64,000 nucleotides of DNA from Marinobacter sp. C7 (GTDB lineage Bacteria > Pseudomonadota > Gammaproteobacteria > Pseudomonadales > Oleiphilaceae): NCBI RefSeq assembly GCF_022343555.1, contig NZ_JAKQZH010000003.1, forward strand, positions 62,001-126,000, written 5' to 3'. This document shows positions 9,984 to 18,171 of the stretch, one piece after another. Made by a program: the position numbers and the translations under genes. Under the pieces are notes generated by a model. The model made no database searches and was not told the origin of the DNA. It worked only from the letters and a program-made list of their open reading frames with translations. Position 1 is the stretch's first letter, and each line of letters begins with the position of its first letter.

Positions 9984-11227
<1,244 letters not shown>

Positions 11228-11231
<4 letters not shown>

Positions 11232-11674
11232 GAATTGTCCTCCGAATTGCGGACGGTGCCGCGAACTTCATAGGAGCGGCCGCGGAACAGTGCCACGGTG
11301 CGGCCGTCCTGGTTGGTCAGGGTAATGTCGTAAATGCCGGTACGGCCGCCCCGGGAACGTTCTTCCGCGGTGGCGGTCAGCAGGTCGCCCTCTCTGGCGC
11401 CGGACATGTAGTCAATGCTGCAGCCGGAAGCCACGGTGGCCCGGTCATAGCTGTTGCAGGCAAAGGCAAAGGCGGAATCGGCCAGGGTGAACAGGTAGCC
11501 GCCATGGCAGGAGCCGTGGCCCTGGATCATGTCGGGGCCTACGGTCATGGTCAGGATGGCCTTGCCGGGGGCTACGGATTCGATTTTCATGCCCAGTTTC
11601 TGGCTGGCACGGTCCCTGGCGAACATGGACTCGGCGCATTCTTCTGCCAGTTTCTGTGGATCGATAGCGCTCAT
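11228..11674 (-). CDS. paaI: Hydroxyphenylacetyl-CoA thioesterase
   Basis: PaaI is a hot-dog fold thioesterase that frees CoA from stalled ring-hydroxylated intermediates. The 148-residue protein shows the [15 protein letters not shown] segment with Asp66 in the place of the catalytic Asp of E. coli PaaI, and the conserved helix that follows. It overlaps paaJ and paaH by 4 bases at each end, so all three are probably translationally coupled. Confidence 0.94.
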
Positions 11675-13191
11675 GCGTAAAACCCCTTGTTGGCAAAACA
11701 GTTCTTTCTCAGCAGCAGCGACGGCCGGTAGCGATCTTCGCCGTAGCTGTTCTGGATGTTGGTCAGCACGGTGAAGGTGCGGCCGGCCCCGAGGCGGTCA
11801 CTCCAGCTCAGAGGCCCTTCCGGGTAATTCAGGCCGGCTTTCATGGCCAGATCGATATCGGCAACCGTGGCGACTCCGTGCAGGTGGGCATCGGCACCCT
11901 CGTTCGCCAGCATGGCGACGGTGCGCATGACCACCAGGCCCGGGCGATCGGCAATGCGGCTGACCGCAAGGCCGGCCGTCTGCAGCAGGGCGCAGGCGTC
12001 GTCGATGGCCTGCCCGGAGGCCTGGTCCGCCGCCGCAATCGCCAGACGGGAGGCCTGGGCGTAGTCGAAGGCAAGGTCGAACAGCACCAGGTTGGCGCAG
12101 CCTTGCGCGGCGGCCCGTTCGGTGGCCAGACGGCCGTCGGTCAATGCCAGCACTGCCTGGCCAAAGCGCAGTTGGCCGTTGCCGGCCCGCTCGATGATCT
12201 TCAGACCCGCATCGCGGAGACGATCCACCAGGGCCGACGCAGGGCCCAGGCTGCCTTCGACGATAACTACAGATTCATTGCTCTGGCGCGGAGCTTCGGT
12301 CTGCGGCTCGGGGCGCTCTGCCCCCTCCTGGTAACTATAGAAGCCCTGGCCGCTCTTGCGACCGAGATGGCCTGCGGAGACCAGCTCCTGCTGAACCAGT
12401 GAGGGCAGGAAACGGGTGTCCTGGTAGTAGGCGTTGAACACCGAGTTGGTCACCGCGTAGTTGACGTCATGGCCGATCAGGTCGGTGAGCTCGAAGGCGC
12501 CCATGCGGAAATTGCCGGCCTCGCGCATCAGGGCGTCAAGGGTAGCCGGGTCCGCGGCCTGTTCCTGGACGAGGCGCAGGCTCTCGGCATAGAACGGTCG
12601 TGCAACCCGGTTGACGATGAAGCCGGGAGTCGACGTCGCATAGACGGGTTTCTTGCCCCAGTTGGCGGCGGTGTCGTACACCGTCTCGGCAACGGCCTTG
12701 TCGGTGGCCAGGCCCAGCACCACTTCCACCAGCGCCATCAGCGGAGCGGGGTTGAAGAAGTGCATGCCCACCAGGCGACCGGGATGCTTCATGCCGGCAC
12801 CCAGGGAGGTGACGGAAATGGAGGAGGTGTTGGTGGCGAGGATGGCGTCCTCGCGGCACAGCGCCTCGAGGTCAGCCAGCAGGCCGCGTTTGATGTCGAG
12901 GTTCTCCACGATCGCCTCGATCACCAGCCCGCTTTCGGCTACTTCCGAGAGATCGGCCACCGGCTGGATGCGGTCGAGGAGGGCGTCCAGGTCCTGCTGC
13001 TCCATCTTGCCCTTGTCCACACGGCGTTGCAGCACCTTGGCAATGCCGTCGCGCCCCGCCTCGGCGGCCCCTTCGCGCTGGTCATGCAGGAAGACGTGGT
13101 GCTCTGCCTGGGCCGCTACCTGGGCGATGCCAGCGCCCATGGCGCCGGCGCCGATGACTGCAACTTTGGTTTGGGTATCCAGTGCCGGCAT
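11671..13191 (-). CDS. paaH: 3-hydroxyadipyl-CoA dehydrogenase
   Basis: PaaH oxidises 3-hydroxyadipyl-CoA to 3-oxoadipyl-CoA with NAD. The 506-residue protein begins with the Rossmann motif GAGAMGAG at 14-21, followed by the 3HCDH_N domain (HFFNPAPLMALVEVV) and two C-terminal 3HCDH helical domains, the two-repeat layout usual for PaaH. The catalytic His-Glu pair is in the HFFNP region and the ELTDLIGHDVN region. The start is 3 bases after the paaG stop. Length is normal. Confidence 0.95.
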   Translation of the reverse strand: MPALDTQTKVAVIGAGAMGAGIAQVAAQAEHHVFLHDQREGAAEAGRDGIAKVLQRRVDKGKMEQQDLDALLDRIQPVADLSEVAESGLVIEAIVENLDIKRGLLADLEALCREDAILATNTSSISVTSLGAGMKHPGRLVGMHFFNPAPLMALVEVVLGLATDKAVAETVYDTAANWGKKPVYATSTPGFIVNRVARPFYAESLRLVQEQAADPATLDALMREAGNFRMGAFELTDLIGHDVNYAVTNSVFNAYYQDTRFLPSLVQQELVSAGHLGRKSGQGFYSYQEGAERPEPQTEAPRQSNESVVIVEGSLGPASALVDRLRDAGLKIIERAGNGQLRFGQAVLALTDGRLATERAAAQGCANLVLFDLAFDYAQASRLAIAAADQASGQAIDDACALLQTAGLAVSRIADRPGLVVMRTVAMLANEGADAHLHGVATVADIDLAMKAGLNYPEGPLSWSDRLGAGRTFTVLTNIQNSYGEDRYRPSLLLRKNCFANKGFYA

Positions 13192-13194
13192 GGT

Positions 13195-13986
13195 TTATTT
13201 CCCCTTGAAAGACGGTGTGCGTTTTTCCATGAAGGCGGCCACGCCCTCGCGGTAGTCTTCAGTGCGACCGGCTTCCCGCTGCAGATCCCGTTCGAGGTTG
13301 ATCTGCTCTTCAAAGGTGTTGTTGACGCTGGCGTGCAGGGCCTGCTTGATGAGTGCCAGGCCCTTGGTGGGCTGGGTGGCGAAGTGGCGGGCCAGTTTCA
13401 TGGTTTCTTCCATCAGCTGGTCGTCGTCCACGCACTGCCAGATCATGCCCCAGTCTTCCGCCTTTTCCGCGCCAATCTTGCCGCCCAGCAGGGCCATGCC
13501 CTTGGCGCGGGCCATGCCTGCCACCCGGGGCAGGGTCCAGGTACCACCGGAATCCGGCACCAGGCCCAGCTTGCAGAAAGCCTGGACGAAGCTGGCGGAG
13601 CGGGCGGCCAGAGTAATGTCGCAGGCCAGGGCGATGTTGGCACCGGCACCGGCGGCTACTCCGTTCACGGCGCACAGCACCGGCATGGGCAGGTCGCGAA
13701 GGCTGCGCATCATCGGGTTGTAGTAGTTCTCCAGGGAGGCACCCAGATCCGGCATTTCCTGGCCCGGGGAAACGCTGCGATCCGAAAGGTCCTGACCGGC
13801 ACAGAATCCCCGGCCGGAACCGGTGATGACCAGCACCCGCACCGTTTCGTCCTTGCGGACGGTGTCGATGGCATCGCGCATGCGCTCATGCATTTCGACA
13901 TTGAAGCTATTGAGGTTATCCGGTCGGTTCAGGGTAAGCAGGGCGACGCCCTGATCGATTTCAAGAAGGATGCTCGGCTGGGTCAT
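13195..13986 (-). CDS. paaG: 1,2-epoxyphenylacetyl-CoA isomerase
   Basis: PaaG converts the ring epoxide to oxepin-CoA and also moves a double bond later in the pathway. The 263-residue crotonase-fold protein has the oxyanion-hole segments RGFCAGQDL and NGVAAGAG and the acidic residue in LVPDSGGTW, and follows E. coli PaaG closely over its length. It is the first gene of the paaGHIJK transcript. No separate paaF hydratase follows it here, so hydration of 2,3-dehydroadipyl-CoA must come from elsewhere or from this enzyme. Confidence 0.94.
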   Translation of the reverse strand: MTQPSILLEIDQGVALLTLNRPDNLNSFNVEMHERMRDAIDTVRKDETVRVLVITGSGRGFCAGQDLSDRSVSPGQEMPDLGASLENYYNPMMRSLRDLPMPVLCAVNGVAAGAGANIALACDITLAARSASFVQAFCKLGLVPDSGGTWTLPRVAGMARAKGMALLGGKIGAEKAEDWGMIWQCVDDDQLMEETMKLARHFATQPTKGLALIKQALHASVNNTFEEQINLERDLQREAGRTEDYREGVAAFMEKRTPSFKGK

Positions 13987-14273
13987 GGTGTTGTCCCGTT
14001 GTTGGTAGCAAGAAATGGTTCGGGACGCTCAGCGTCCCGTTACAGGAATGGCGAATAGCCCCCGGAGCACGCGAGGGGTGTCCGGGCGGAAATTGGCAGG
14101 GGTGGTATGGATGTTTTCCGGTACCGCCCCTGCGGATGTGATGTGCAGGTTGTTTGGCATAAGCAATCCGGTGCGACTTTGTTTTTGTCTCATCATTTGC
14201 CGGCTTGGCCGATCAGATTCCGGGCGCTGCATACCCTGGTCTTTCTGGTCTGTCAGGGTCGAATGCGTGAATG

Positions 14274-14301
14274 AGTATATCTCAGAATTGATACCCGTCA
14301 A
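14274..14301 (-). promoter_or_regulatory. Predicted sigma-70 promoter of paaGHIJK with overlapping half-site
   Basis: On the leftward strand a -35 TTGACG (14296-14301) and a -10 TATACT (14274-14279) are 16 bases apart. A TGATACC half-site (14289-14295, plus strand) fills the spacer, where a bound protein would block RNA polymerase. An opposite-strand TGATAC lies at 14333-14338. Transcription would begin near 14267. Confidence 0.55.
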
Positions 14302-14477
14302 GGATCCATGGTATCGACTTCTGTATCACTTTGGCATTCTGGGGGTTTGTTGCCTGTTTATCTTGATGAAAATAAAGAAAAATAAATTCGAGTATTGAGT
14401 TTTTTATAGCCGTTCAGAAGGCAATTGATCGTTGTTAAGCCTCCCGGGGACATGAAATTCCACACAAAAACGGATAA

Positions 14478-14500
14478 TGTGATACGGAAAATGAATCACA
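14478..14500. promoter_or_regulatory. Inverted TGTGAT repeat upstream of paaY (candidate PaaX-like operator)
   Basis: TGTGATACG on the plus strand faces TGTGATTCA on the minus strand, giving 6-bp arms TGTGAT/ATCACA separated by 11 bases. Both half-sites match the core TRTGATTCG recalled for E. coli PaaX, one with a single change. GATAAT at 14473-14478 could be a -10 for paaY, which would place this repeat over the start point. The arm spacing is too wide for a CRP site. Confidence 0.45.
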
Positions 14501-14560
14501 ATAATCGTTTTGGGTTCCATAAGGCTTCGTGCCGCAACCCCCTGCCAACAGGAGAAAGTT

Positions 14561-15154
14561 ATGCCCGTATACAGCATTGAAGGTGTTGTCCCGGTTGTCC
14601 ACCCGACCGCTTATGTTCACCCGAGCGCCGTTCTGATTGGTGACGTCTGGATCGGACCGGATTGCTATGTGGGGCCGGCGGCCTGTCTGCGGGGGGATTT
14701 TGGCCGTGTTGTCCTCAAGGAAGGTTCCAACATTCAGGACACCTGCGTGATGCACGCCTTCCCGGGCATGGACACGGTGATCGAAAAGAACGGCCACGTG
14801 GGGCACGGTGCGATCCTGCACGGGTGCATTGTGGGTGAAGACGCGATGGTTGGAATGAATGCGGTGGTCATGGACGAGGCGCATATTGCGCCCCGTTCGA
14901 TTGTCGGCGCCGGCGCCCTGGTCAAGGCCAAATTCCAGTGCGAGCCGGCATCCCTGATCGTCGGATCGCCGGCGAAGGTACTGCGAACCCTGAGCGACAA
15001 GGAAGTGGCCTGGAAGAAGAAGGGCACCGAAGAGTATCAGCGCCTGACGCGCCGCTCACTCGACAGTCTGGTGGAATGTCAGCCCCTGGAAGAGGGGGAG
15101 CCCGACCGTCCGCGGGTAGACGCCGGCCAGTACCAGCCGAAACACCAGTCCTGA
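14561..15154 (+). CDS. paaY: Phenylacetate-pathway gamma-carbonic-anhydrase-like thioesterase
   Basis: PaaY is a left-handed beta-helix (hexapeptide repeat) protein that hydrolyses the toxic 2-hydroxycyclohepta-1,4,6-triene-1-formyl-CoA by-product of the pathway. The 197-residue protein shows the repeat pattern (IGDVWIGPDCYVGP, VGEDAMVGMNAVV) and metal-binding-type histidines in HAFPG and GHVGHGAILHG. The start is the ATG with GGAG ten bases upstream. It is transcribed away from paaG, sharing the control region. Confidence 0.93.
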   Translation: MPVYSIEGVVPVVHPTAYVHPSAVLIGDVWIGPDCYVGPAACLRGDFGRVVLKEGSNIQDTCVMHAFPGMDTVIEKNGHVGHGAILHGCIVGEDAMVGMNAVVMDEAHIAPRSIVGAGALVKAKFQCEPASLIVGSPAKVLRTLSDKEVAWKKKGTEEYQRLTRRSLDSLVECQPLEEGEPDRPRVDAGQYQPKHQS

Positions 15155-15189: not shown

Positions 15190-15215
15190 GAAATGGCGGC
15201 TCAGGCCGCCATTTC
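15190..15215. terminator. Hairpin at the paaY / hydrolase 3' ends
   Basis: A perfect 11-bp stem (GAAATGGCGGC with GCCGCCATTTC) with a TCAG tetraloop. The loop contains the stop codon of the convergent hydrolase gene. The A/T-rich stem base gives a weak terminator in both directions. Confidence 0.55.
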
Positions 15216-16100
15216 CGATTTCAGGGCATCAATAATGATGCGTGCGAAATCCTCCGGGGAATCTTCCTGCAGGAAATGCCCGCCCCGCAGGGTAATGTGC
15301 GGTTGGCCGTGAGCGCCGGGGATCCTGCGCTGCATGTAACGGTCCTCGCCGCGGGTAATGGGGTCTCCGCTGCTGAAGCAGGTTATAAACGGTTTGCGCC
15401 ATTTCTTCAGAACTTTCCAGGTCGCCCGGTTGGCCAGTCCGGCCGGGTCATCCCGGGATACCGGAACCAGCCTGGGGAACGCGCGGGCACCGGCCTTGTA
15501 CTTCGTCGAGGGAAAAGGTGCCTCGTAGGCCGCTTGTTCGGCTCTGCTCAGGGTTCGTTCCGTGCCCAGCTGTACAATGCGCCCGACAGGAAGCCAGGGG
15601 CTGTGGGTGACAAAGGTTTTCCAGAGGGAGAACATGGCCGGTGCACGGGTGTTTCCGGTCGGCAACATGCCGTTACCGACAATGATGCAGCGGATCCGAT
15701 GGGAATGCTCGGCCGCCAGGCGGAGTCCCAGCAAAGACCCCCAGTTCTGGCACACCAAGGTGATGTCCTTGAGGTCCAGCTGTTCGATCCATTCCGTCAG
15801 CCACGCCATGTGCCGGTCGTAGCTGTAGTCCGCCATGTCTGCCGGCTTGTCCGATTTACCAAACCCGATAAGATCCGGGGCCAGTGCCCGGTGGCCGGCA
15901 GCGGCGATCGGCGGGATCATGTGACGGTACAGATAGGACCAGGATGGCTCTCCGTGCAGCATCAGTACCGGTGAAGCGCCGCGGGGGCCTTCATCGACGT
16001 AGTGCATTCTCAGGTTGGGCTCTACGTCGAGGTAATTGGGGGCAAAAGGGTAATCCGGCAGACCCTGAAAGCGGGCTTCGTCGGTTCTCAGAATACGCAT
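15201..16100 (-). CDS. Haloalkane dehalogenase-like alpha/beta hydrolase with Asn at the nucleophile
   Basis: The 299-residue protein aligns in pattern with subfamily I haloalkane dehalogenases: HGEPSWSYLYR at 49-59, a cap domain, acid Asp246 in SGDP and base His275 in GGHFLQED. In these enzymes the nucleophile lies in a QDWG motif; here it reads QNWG, with Asn119 (codon AAC at 15744-15746) followed by the halide-contacting Trp120. The rest of the catalytic set is intact. It may be inactive, may self-convert by deamidation, or may have another function. It converges on paaY and is not part of the paa pathway. Confidence 0.85.
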   Translation of the reverse strand: MRILRTDEARFQGLPDYPFAPNYLDVEPNLRMHYVDEGPRGASPVLMLHGEPSWSYLYRHMIPPIAAAGHRALAPDLIGFGKSDKPADMADYSYDRHMAWLTEWIEQLDLKDITLVCQNWGSLLGLRLAAEHSHRIRCIIVGNGMLPTGNTRAPAMFSLWKTFVTHSPWLPVGRIVQLGTERTLSRAEQAAYEAPFPSTKYKAGARAFPRLVPVSRDDPAGLANRATWKVLKKWRKPFITCFSSGDPITRGEDRYMQRRIPGAHGQPHITLRGGHFLQEDSPEDFARIIIDALKSEMAA

Positions 16101-16222
16101 GCCATCGACTGTCCTGACTGATAGGTTGCGTAATTGCCGTTATGACAATCCTCGCAAATCAGGATAAATCAGATGGCTGTTTCATGTGTTTGAGTTGCGT
16201 AACAGTGCGTATCCCGTTTGCT

Positions 16223-16471
16223 TCAGCAGGCCAGGTCCAGCAAGAGGTCGGGGTTTTCGATCTCTGTCATGGCGTCGTCACAGCAGTTCACGGCACCGCA
16301 ATCGTCCGCCGGACACAAGGCCAGAACCTGACACTGGATGTCCTGCTGGTTCTCGCCTTCGTTGCGGAACATCCGGGCACGGGAAAGAATGGATCGACAA
16401 TGGCCGCAAAGCAGGGTCGGTACAGCGCTGCCAACGGCGAGAATGGCGTTGTAATGGGTCTGTTCAGTCAT
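16223..16471 (-). CDS. Small cysteine-rich protein of unknown function
   Basis: An 82-residue protein preceded by a near-perfect Shine-Dalgarno AGGAGG, which makes it a convincing gene. It has eight cysteines: Cys22 and Cys25 in a CGHC pair, Cys47, Cys53, Cys58, the adjacent Cys63-Cys64, and the C-terminal Cys82. There is no signal peptide or membrane segment, so the cysteines probably bind metal in the cytoplasm. I do not recognise the family. It is flanked by the dehalogenase-like gene and another leftward hypothetical gene. Confidence 0.7.
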   Translation of the reverse strand: MTEQTHYNAILAVGSAVPTLLCGHCRSILSRARMFRNEGENQQDIQCQVLALCPADDCGAVNCCDDAMTEIENPDLLLDLAC

Positions 16472-16548: not shown

Positions 16549-16941
16549 CTATACGGATCCTTTATCCGGATCGACCACCGGCCGGCGATTGGAGCGCTTG
16601 TCTTCCCAGTCAAGCTCCTTCGGATCGTACCAGCCGATGGCATTGAGTACTTTCTGGCGGGTACGCGGGGAGAGCGTGGGCCAAAGCTCCTGGAAGTCGT
16701 CCAGGCCCTGTTCCCGCTGCTTCTGCTGTTTGCTCTGCAGTCGGTTGATGATCTTCGGGAGCTGCAGAGCCTCCCCGAGCTGGCCGGGTACCAACACCTC
16801 CTGCCCCATCACCTTACGGCGATGAGTCCTTGTCGCCAGCACACGCTGGAGTTCCGTCGCAGCTTCAAGCGCCGTTTCGGTGGTAAAGGTTTCCAGTTCC
16901 AATAATGTGACTCGTTTGTCGGTTAAGCCATAACCGATCAC
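16549..16941 (-). CDS. Hypothetical protein, 130 residues
   Basis: I do not recognise this protein. It is predicted soluble, with a helical N-terminal half rich in Leu and Glu, a Lys/Gln-rich middle (QSKQQKQREQ) and a C-terminal part with WPTLSPRTRQKVLNAIGWYDP. No signal or membrane segment is visible. The assigned start has only a weak upstream ribosome site, so a downstream start is possible. It is divergent from the AI-2E-type transporter gene. Confidence 0.6.
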   Translation of the reverse strand: MIGYGLTDKRVTLLELETFTTETALEAATELQRVLATRTHRRKVMGQEVLVPGQLGEALQLPKIINRLQSKQQKQREQGLDDFQELWPTLSPRTRQKVLNAIGWYDPKELDWEDKRSNRRPVVDPDKGSV

Positions 16942-17049: not shown

Positions 17050-18171
17050 ATGTACGCAAAACTTGAAACACGGACTTTTCTGGCCTTGCTGGTTGGCGTT
17101 TCCCTCGCGTTCGTGTTTCTGATGAAGCCTTTCTTCGGTCCCATTTTCTGGGCCGTGGCGATCGCGCTCATCTTCCATCCGGTCCAGAACCTGCTGGTCC
17201 GCTGGCTGGGAGAGCGACCAAACACCAATGCCCTGATCACTCTGGTGTTCTGCATGGTGATCGTGGTCATTCCGGTGCTGGTACTGGTGACGTCTCTGGT
17301 TGCCCAGGGCGTGGATCTCTACCAGCAGATCCAGCGCGGGGAGATCCGGCCGGGCGAATATATCGATCAGGTCAACAAGTCGTTTCCGGCGATTCAGGCC
17401 TTCCTCGCCCAGTTTGACATCAGCTTTACCGAATTGCGGGACCGTGCCGTCAGCCTGTTCGTCGGTGGCAGTCAGTTCCTGGCCAAACAAGCTCTGGGAA
17501 TCGGCCAGAATACCTTCCAGTTCTTCATGGGCCTCGCGCTGATGGTGTACCTGGCGTTTTTCCTGCTCCGGGATGGTCACTCCCTGGTTGAGCTGATTAT
17601 CCGGGCGCTGCCGTTGGGCGATGAACGCGAGCGCCTGCTGTTTGCCAAGTTTGCCGAGGTCACCCGCGCAACGGTCAAGGGGAACCTGCTGATTGCCATT
17701 ATCCAGGGTGCCCTCGGCGGGTTGATCTTCTGGATTCTCGGGATTTCCGGTGCGCTCCTGTGGGGCGTGGTCATGGCAATTGTGTCCCTGCTGCCGGCGG
17801 TGGGGGCTGCTCTCGTATGGGTACCGGCGGCCATATACCTGGCCGCAGTCGGGGATGTGGTCCCGGCCATTGTCCTGACCGTGTTCGGCGTAGTGGTGAT
17901 TGGTCTTGCCGATAACCTGTTGAGGCCACTTCTGGTCGGTCGGGATACCAAGTTGCCGGATTACGTGGTGTTGCTTTCAACCCTGGGCGGCATTGTCATG
18001 TTTGGTATCAACGGATTTGTGATGGGGCCCCTGGTCGCGGCCCTGTTCATGGCCTTCTGGGGCATTTTTATCCGGGAATTCGGGCACGAGGCGCAAACAG
18101 TCCGGCATCCGGGAACCGGGCCGGAATCGGAAGATGAGAACCGCGGCAACCGCCCCGAAAGCAAACTGTGA
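17050..18171 (+). CDS. AI-2E family transporter (PerM/YdiK-like)
   Basis: A 373-residue inner-membrane protein of the AI-2E transporter superfamily. Paired hydrophobic helices occur at the N-terminus (FLALLVGVSLAFVFLM) with more in the middle and C-terminal parts, and the family segment GLADNLLRPLLVG is clear near residue 280. A soluble, amphipathic stretch of about 90 residues follows the second helix pair, as in relatives. Members export autoinducer-2 or act as ion/proton antiporters; the sequence does not distinguish these. The C-terminal tail is short and charged. Confidence 0.88.
   Translation: MYAKLETRTFLALLVGVSLAFVFLMKPFFGPIFWAVAIALIFHPVQNLLVRWLGERPNTNALITLVFCMVIVVIPVLVLVTSLVAQGVDLYQQIQRGEIRPGEYIDQVNKSFPAIQAFLAQFDISFTELRDRAVSLFVGGSQFLAKQALGIGQNTFQFFMGLALMVYLAFFLLRDGHSLVELIIRALPLGDERERLLFAKFAEVTRATVKGNLLIAIIQGALGGLIFWILGISGALLWGVVMAIVSLLPAVGAALVWVPAAIYLAAVGDVVPAIVLTVFGVVVIGLADNLLRPLLVGRDTKLPDYVVLLSTLGGIVMFGINGFVMGPLVAALFMAFWGIFIREFGHEAQTVRHPGTGPESEDENRGNRPESKL

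Follow-up and report, generated by a model that had tools for sequence, protein, structure and literature searches.

A natural, genus-conserved haloalkane dehalogenase variant of Marinobacter with asparagine at the position of the catalytic nucleophile

The window analysed in this study is a stretch of 64,000 nucleotides from Marinobacter sp. C7, in which a minus-strand gene encodes a protein related to the haloalkane dehalogenases of subfamily I (HLD-I) but with asparagine where the nucleophilic aspartate is expected (Table 1). The original prediction, which was made from the DNA letters alone, had assigned the nucleophile position to Asn119 and had named the HGEPSW motif, Trp120, Asp246 and His275 as hallmark residues; all of these were seen again in the translation. 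On the plus strand, the codon in question is GTT, which gives AAC in the coding direction. Trp160, the second halide-stabilising tryptophan, was missing from the earlier list; it is presumably the counterpart of DhlA Trp175, as matched by motif.

Table 1. Features of the Asn-type locus and its surroundings in the window
Feature	Position	Strand	Remarks
Asn-type HLD-I gene	15201..16100	minus	299 aa; ORF and translation, NCBIfam, PDB alignments
Codon 119, AAC (Asn at the place of the catalytic Asp nucleophile)	15744..15746	minus	PDB alignments; Asn in 116/116 genus copies
Trp120, first halide-stabilising residue	15741..15743	minus	Arg in 5/116 genus copies
HGEPSW motif, residues 49-54	15939..15956	minus	
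Trp160, second halide-stabilising Trp	15621..15623	minus	
Asp246, charge-relay acid	15363..15365	minus	115/115 readable genus copies
His275, general base	15276..15278	minus	115/115 readable genus copies
Conserved leader CAGTCAGGACAGTCGATGGC plus ATG	16098..16120	minus	Exact in 81/116, 0-2 mismatches in 104/116 genus copies
Conserved upstream element CTGTTACGYAANNNAAACA	16187..16205	minus	0-2 mismatches in 115/116 genus copies
Neighbouring ORF of no clear family	16549..16941	minus	Context, not part of the enzyme
AI-2E family transporter gene	17050..18171	plus	Context

Based on its score against the NCBIfam model NF002043 "haloalkane dehalogenase" (458 bits, cut-off 265), the protein belongs to this family, and its closest solved proteins are 6f9o, 5esr and 4mj3, which we take to be HLD-I enzymes. 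In the PDB alignments with these three structures, Asn119 is placed on the Asp of the CQDWGG motif, which confirmed the identity of the exchanged residue. In an AlphaFold model (44 sequences; pLDDT 89.8, pTM 0.90), residue 119 forms the turn that leads from strand 113-118 into helix 121-131, corresponding to the usual nucleophile elbow. The top fold match of the model is DpcA (6f9o) with Z 44.0 and rmsd 1.6 over 299 residues, and DhlA (1b6g) is matched with Z 37.8. Neither the domain search nor the model revealed an extra domain within the 299 residues. The accessible part of PMC6920932 words the HLD-I pentad as Asp-His-Asp+Trp-Trp. Measured against it, the protein combines the curated family score and the HLD-I fold with the His base, the Asp acid and, in the window, both halide-stabilising Trp residues (Trp120 and Trp160), but has Asn119 in place of the Asp nucleophile.

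The genomic setting of the gene is conserved. In 114 of 116 genus loci (the two others, L114 and L281, are short stretches), and also in all six loci of the sister groups g8 and g11, the gene is flanked by both the neighbouring ORF and the AI-2E transporter gene; the pair was found at none of 21 second-copy loci, for which stretches of about 4 kb were available. Allowing up to two mismatches, the upstream element CTGTTACGYAANNNAAACA is placed 77-133 bases before the ATG in 115/116 genus copies and occurred in none of 1160 single-base shuffles; it is absent from all 19 second copies and from five of the six g8/g11 copies. A 21-base form of the element has one match in its own genome at two mismatches or fewer, and the backward control pattern likewise has one.

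An ORF for a Cys-rich product of 82 aa (CGHC...CPADDCGAVNCCDD) lies at 16223-16471 on the minus strand; it is recognisable in 82 of the 116 genus loci and at all five g11 loci, and showed no Pfam match. On the other side, a phenylacetate-type gene run (9984-15154) is joined to the Asn locus in some species only. Its genes are presumably those for a thiolase, PaaI, PaaH, PaaG and PaaY, as named from sequence likeness, and the hexapeptide repeats of PaaY were identified by domain search. A role in the paa pathway was considered, as paaY and further paa genes adjoin the gene in the window, yet paaY is near the Asn copy in only 24/116 genus loci, as read within flanks of some 1 to 4 kb, and the idea was rejected.

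In order to determine the distribution of the exchange, 124 Marinobacter genomes were searched at a threshold of E ≤ 1e-60. The Asn copy is carried by 116 of them, and no HLD-I match at this threshold was found in eight. Residue 119 is Asn in each of the 116 genus copies, encoded by AAC in 103 and by AAT in 13. The original prediction had proposed to look for Asn119 in close relatives, and had allowed for a sequencing error at this codon and for relatives all carrying Asp; the same Asn in every genus copy at the locus, including that of the window, excludes the former and contradicts the latter. Glu51 is likewise kept in 116/116 copies, and His275 and Asp246 are present in all 115 readable ones. 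In the sole unreadable copy (L121/L287, genome G066), a frame change interrupts the gene after or near residue 237; in the window gene and in 115/116 genus copies, the frame is open. Genome G066 consists of a single contig, and its other HLD-I copy is also a partial match, so that a sequencing error is likely. The halide-stabilising residues are less strictly retained: Trp120 is found in 111/116 copies, with Arg in five, and Trp160 in 113/116, with two Leu and one Cys; the three copies lacking Trp160 comprise one of the five without Trp120 and two others.

By an eye count, which includes some incomplete genomes, 50 of the 116 carriers have no HLD-I match at E ≤ 1e-60 other than the Asn copy. 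Among the best 80 of 572 matches, 50 have Asn, including those of M. pelagius, M. nauticus, M. algicola, M. salarius and M. lipolyticus, and 30 have Asp. Judged by their identity of 62-68%, the Asp members among these best 80 are second copies or belong to other genera, with the exception of M. mangrovi (L212), which has Asp at 72% identity. M. nauticus DSM 50418 (L204) and M. algicola DG893 (L183) are two named strains with Asn. At the same chromosomal place in the sister groups, Asn is found in the one g8 genome and in two of five g11 genomes (L111, L112); the other three g11 loci (L109, L110, L115; one of them M. mangrovi) have Asp, for which a return from Asn is possible. The second HLD-I copies of the genus, located elsewhere in the genome, have Asp at all 21 loci read, two of which are more distant, and so do all 25 HLD-I loci read from other genera of the family.

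At the level of the order, 244 genomes gave 91 listed HLD-I matches, and the 86 that were read comprise 82 Asp (four of them Marinobacter second copies) and four Asn, all from Marinobacter (g1) or g11; the five matches left out are Marinobacter copies of the Asn gene already counted as Asn. Across 398 genomes of the phylum, the pattern L..C-Q-[ND]-W-G gave 34 matches, six of them with an Asn codon, namely four instances of the Asn gene in Marinobacter and two non-HLD sequences. Of 30 pattern loci from these genomes, 26 match the Asn119 protein: 25 with Asp, including three Marinobacter second copies, and one with Asn, which is again the Marinobacter Asn gene. Searching 390 genomes of the order for the Asn pattern returned 19 matches, 16 to the Marinobacter-type Asn gene and three to non-HLD sequences. 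Outside Marinobacter and g8/g11, no Asn-type HLD-I was found in the sampled order and phylum genomes with patterns that need Cys before Gln, so that Asn forms elsewhere could escape such searches. A MAG titled Halomonas sp. SAT58 (PAKW01; L188, L237) contains both Marinobacter-type copies, and its title looks wrong. We also found no HLD described as having Asn as its natural nucleophile in the literature searched, which includes the accessible parts of PMC3194198, PMC8233155, PMC6920932, PMC10503415, PMC3005927, PMC3938430, PMC8244358 and PMC13355053 and has most subscription papers outside its reach; this is no proof of absence. As far as sequence comparison can tell, the gene is confirmed as a natural, genus-conserved HLD-I variant without the defining nucleophile, and we classify it as an HLD-I-derived Asn lineage and not as a dehalogenase.

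Next, we analysed the selection acting on the gene. The median pairwise dN/dS of the Asn copies is 0.107 (941 pairs with dS 0.1-1.2 from 110 sequences, leaving out L121 and the five Trp120-less copies). These five, compared among themselves in 10 pairs with dS up to 2.0, have a median of 0.124, and 50 pairs from 19 sequences of the Asp second copies gave 0.070. The Asn copies are clearly constrained, though somewhat less than the Asp second copies. A tree of the syntenic copies (115 tips) has 12 changes in the third base of codon 119, none in the second and one in the first; this single change involves only the three g11 Asp rows and none within the genus. Since a transition at the first base is all that is needed to turn Asn into Asp, yet none of the 116 genus copies shows Asp, Asn is being kept. 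These comparisons show, at the level of sequence, that the Asn lineage is conserved in both sequence and synteny, that purifying selection acts on it, and that it differs from the Asp-type HLD-I copy which the genomes carry at another place.

In a tree of 64 chosen rows, all syntenic copies group together and apart from the Asp copies (support 100/98), and the distribution of Asn and Asp needs three changes. A single origin of Asn was neither rejected nor established: holding the 38 Asn rows as one clade cost 22.3 log-likelihood units (p-AU 0.083). The five g11 rows held as a clade cost 8.8 units (p-AU 0.346), and constraining the three Asp rows of g11 to a clade improved on the free tree by 0.9 units. 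Based on these trees, one step from Asp to Asn that was later reverted in the M. mangrovi group cannot be told apart from several steps from Asp to Asn. L003 and L121 were left out of one further tree, and L121 also out of the table of pocket residues.

The five Trp120-less copies (L142-L146, from genomes G016, G011, G064, G063 and G122) form a group within the genus at the same locus, with a support of 100/100 and a long branch (0.69). Here, HGEPSW has become HGEHGW, and Trp120 is replaced by Arg (Q-N-R-T/S-S). Further pocket changes are at Phe157, Pro209, Val212 and Ile248, whereas Glu51, Gln118, Asn119, Asp246 and His275 are kept in all five. The comparison of polar catalytic residues kept versus pocket residues changed gave a Fisher p of 0.0047, with sets that were picked after seeing the data.

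In HLDs, the nucleophilic Asp forms an ester with the substrate, which is then cleaved by a water molecule activated by His; an Asn should form no such ester. We tentatively favour, at a strength somewhat short of probable, that the Asn119 protein is a non-dehalogenating general-base enzyme which acts on an unhalogenated ligand and has kept the pocket and the His-Asp pair. The nucleophilic Asp would have become Asn in an HLD-I-derived lineage and would have been kept as Asn since then. As encoded, the protein is unlikely to dehalogenate and would form no alkyl-enzyme ester of the dehalogenase type; instead, the His275-Asp246 pair may be the general base for water or for the ligand, Asn119 would provide positioning by hydrogen bonds within the same hydrophobic pocket, and the halide-binding Trp residues would be the dispensable part. 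The working form is probably the Asn protein itself rather than a deamidated product, because the Asn codon is strictly kept and Trp120 is lost in some copies; the retention of the His-Asp pair in every readable copy points to chemistry rather than mere binding. Against a general-base enzyme counts that most pocket residues are the same in the Asn and the Asp copies, as expected of a protein still handling haloalkanes, and that the constraint on the Asn copies is slightly weaker than that on the second copies. Furthermore, with Asp at this locus in three of the five genomes of g11, parts of the lineage can do without Asn, and His and Asp may have been retained for structural reasons. With greater reserve, we consider it possible that the lineage represents a genus-wide Asn-His-Asp general-base alpha/beta-hydrolase that has moved past dehalogenation to unhalogenated substrates with Asn kept by selection, and that the five Trp120-to-Arg copies are the next step of this departure.

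Of the three readings offered by the original prediction, namely a self-maturing enzyme, a non-hydrolytic binder and a decayed copy, the last did not survive the comparison and self-maturation is disfavoured. A decaying pseudogene or a sequencing error could account for the missing nucleophile and would suit the frame change in the G066 copy; decay is ruled out, since 116 genomes agree, the dN/dS is 0.107, the frame is open, and both the leader and the upstream element are conserved, so that we regard this explanation as practically negligible. Unlikely, but with a real chance, the protein is a non-catalytic binder or sensor, i.e. a pseudoenzyme that holds a halogenated or unhalogenated small molecule without turnover. 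An exchange of Asp for Asn drops the nucleophile and preserves the shape, the pocket is conserved, and 7ziz (by its title, HaloTag7-D106A) provides a dead HLD holding a ligand without the nucleophile. However, His275 and Asp246 are kept in 115/115 copies, even where Trp120 is lost, although binding should not need them, and the protein carries no extra domain.

Self-maturation would mean that a water activated by His275 hydrolyses Asn119 to Asp after folding, resulting in an ordinary, if delayed, dehalogenase. His275, Asp246 and the whole pocket, the residues that such a hydrolysis should need, are present, and g11 has both Asp and Asn at the locus. There is also a precedent of 1995: Pries, Kingma and Janssen reportedly observed that the DhlA Asp124Asn mutant is activated by hydrolytic deamidation. 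However, if Asp were the working residue, A-to-G changes at the first codon base should recur, but they are seen in 0/116 genus copies against 12 third-base changes; moreover, the halide-stabilising Trp120 is lost in five copies, and Asn119 precedes Trp and not Gly, a context in which succinimide formation is slow. We therefore consider self-maturation improbable. Dehalogenation by another route, such as the direct attack of a His-activated water on a reactive halide, would be in line with both halide-binding Trp residues being mostly kept, but the loss of Trp is tolerated in several copies and we know of no precedent among HLDs; we judge it to be very improbable. The general-base enzyme acting on an unhalogenated ligand thus remains our preferred, if tentative, reading.

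A link to expression comes from electrode cultures of M. atlanticus, in which, according to the accessible part of PMC8233155, the expression of the "haloalkane dehalogenase" ACP86_14360 was higher at 160 mV compared to 310/510 mV, a response that its authors could not readily explain. The locus tag lies at 0.74 of the distance from recBC to recA. With main contigs treated as circles and the length of G109 rounded, eight of nine genomes examined have the Asn copy 0.65-0.73 of the way along the recC-recA arc, and the ninth (G051, 6% contamination) has it outside, and the Asp copy lies outside this arc in 7/7 genomes with a listed position. Based on gene order, the electrode-responsive gene is probably the Asn copy, and the reported induction of a "haloalkane dehalogenase" probably concerns it. 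The company that this gene keeps in the accessible part of PMC8233155 also prompted the idea of LexA control, which was rejected, as a loose LexA-like box was found in one of 35 upstream stretches chosen from 122 genus and sister loci.

As the protein reaches 458 bits against NF002043 though its nucleophile is absent, most Marinobacter genomes probably carry the wrong enzyme name for this gene. EnzymeMiner, as described in the accessible part of PMC13355053, filters by essential residues, and such mining would discard the Asn lineage if Asp is required. The locus provides a natural series (Asp; Asn with Trp; Asn without Trp), which may reveal the order of catalytic loss and of the gain of a new role. 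The lineage also represents a natural test of whether cells use the self-activation of Asn to Asp, which to our knowledge is known only from a laboratory mutant.

Comparing the protein to known systems, the closest relative by structure is the HLD-I enzyme DpcA of Psychrobacter cryohalolentis K5 (6f9o), with 54% identity over the structural alignment and the same HGEPSW motif, Trp-Trp, His and Asp residues; it differs in the motif CQDWGG, with the Asp nucleophile, where the Marinobacter protein has CQNWGS. DmxA of Marinobacter sp. ELB17 (5mxp) is another Marinobacter HLD with an odd pentad, in which, according to the accessible part of PMC6920932, the halide residue is Q40; unlike the Asn119 protein, DmxA belongs to HLD-II, has an intact Asp nucleophile and is active. 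The Asp-type second copy (L002, 65% identity) shares nearly all of the pocket and every other catalytic residue, but has Asp at 21/21 genus loci and occupies a different genomic place. Finally, DhlA (1b6g/2had), which we take to originate from Xanthobacter autotrophicus, shares the fold, and the same substitution has been made in it; while Asp124Asn of DhlA is a laboratory mutant, the Asn of Marinobacter is natural, genus-wide and kept by selection.
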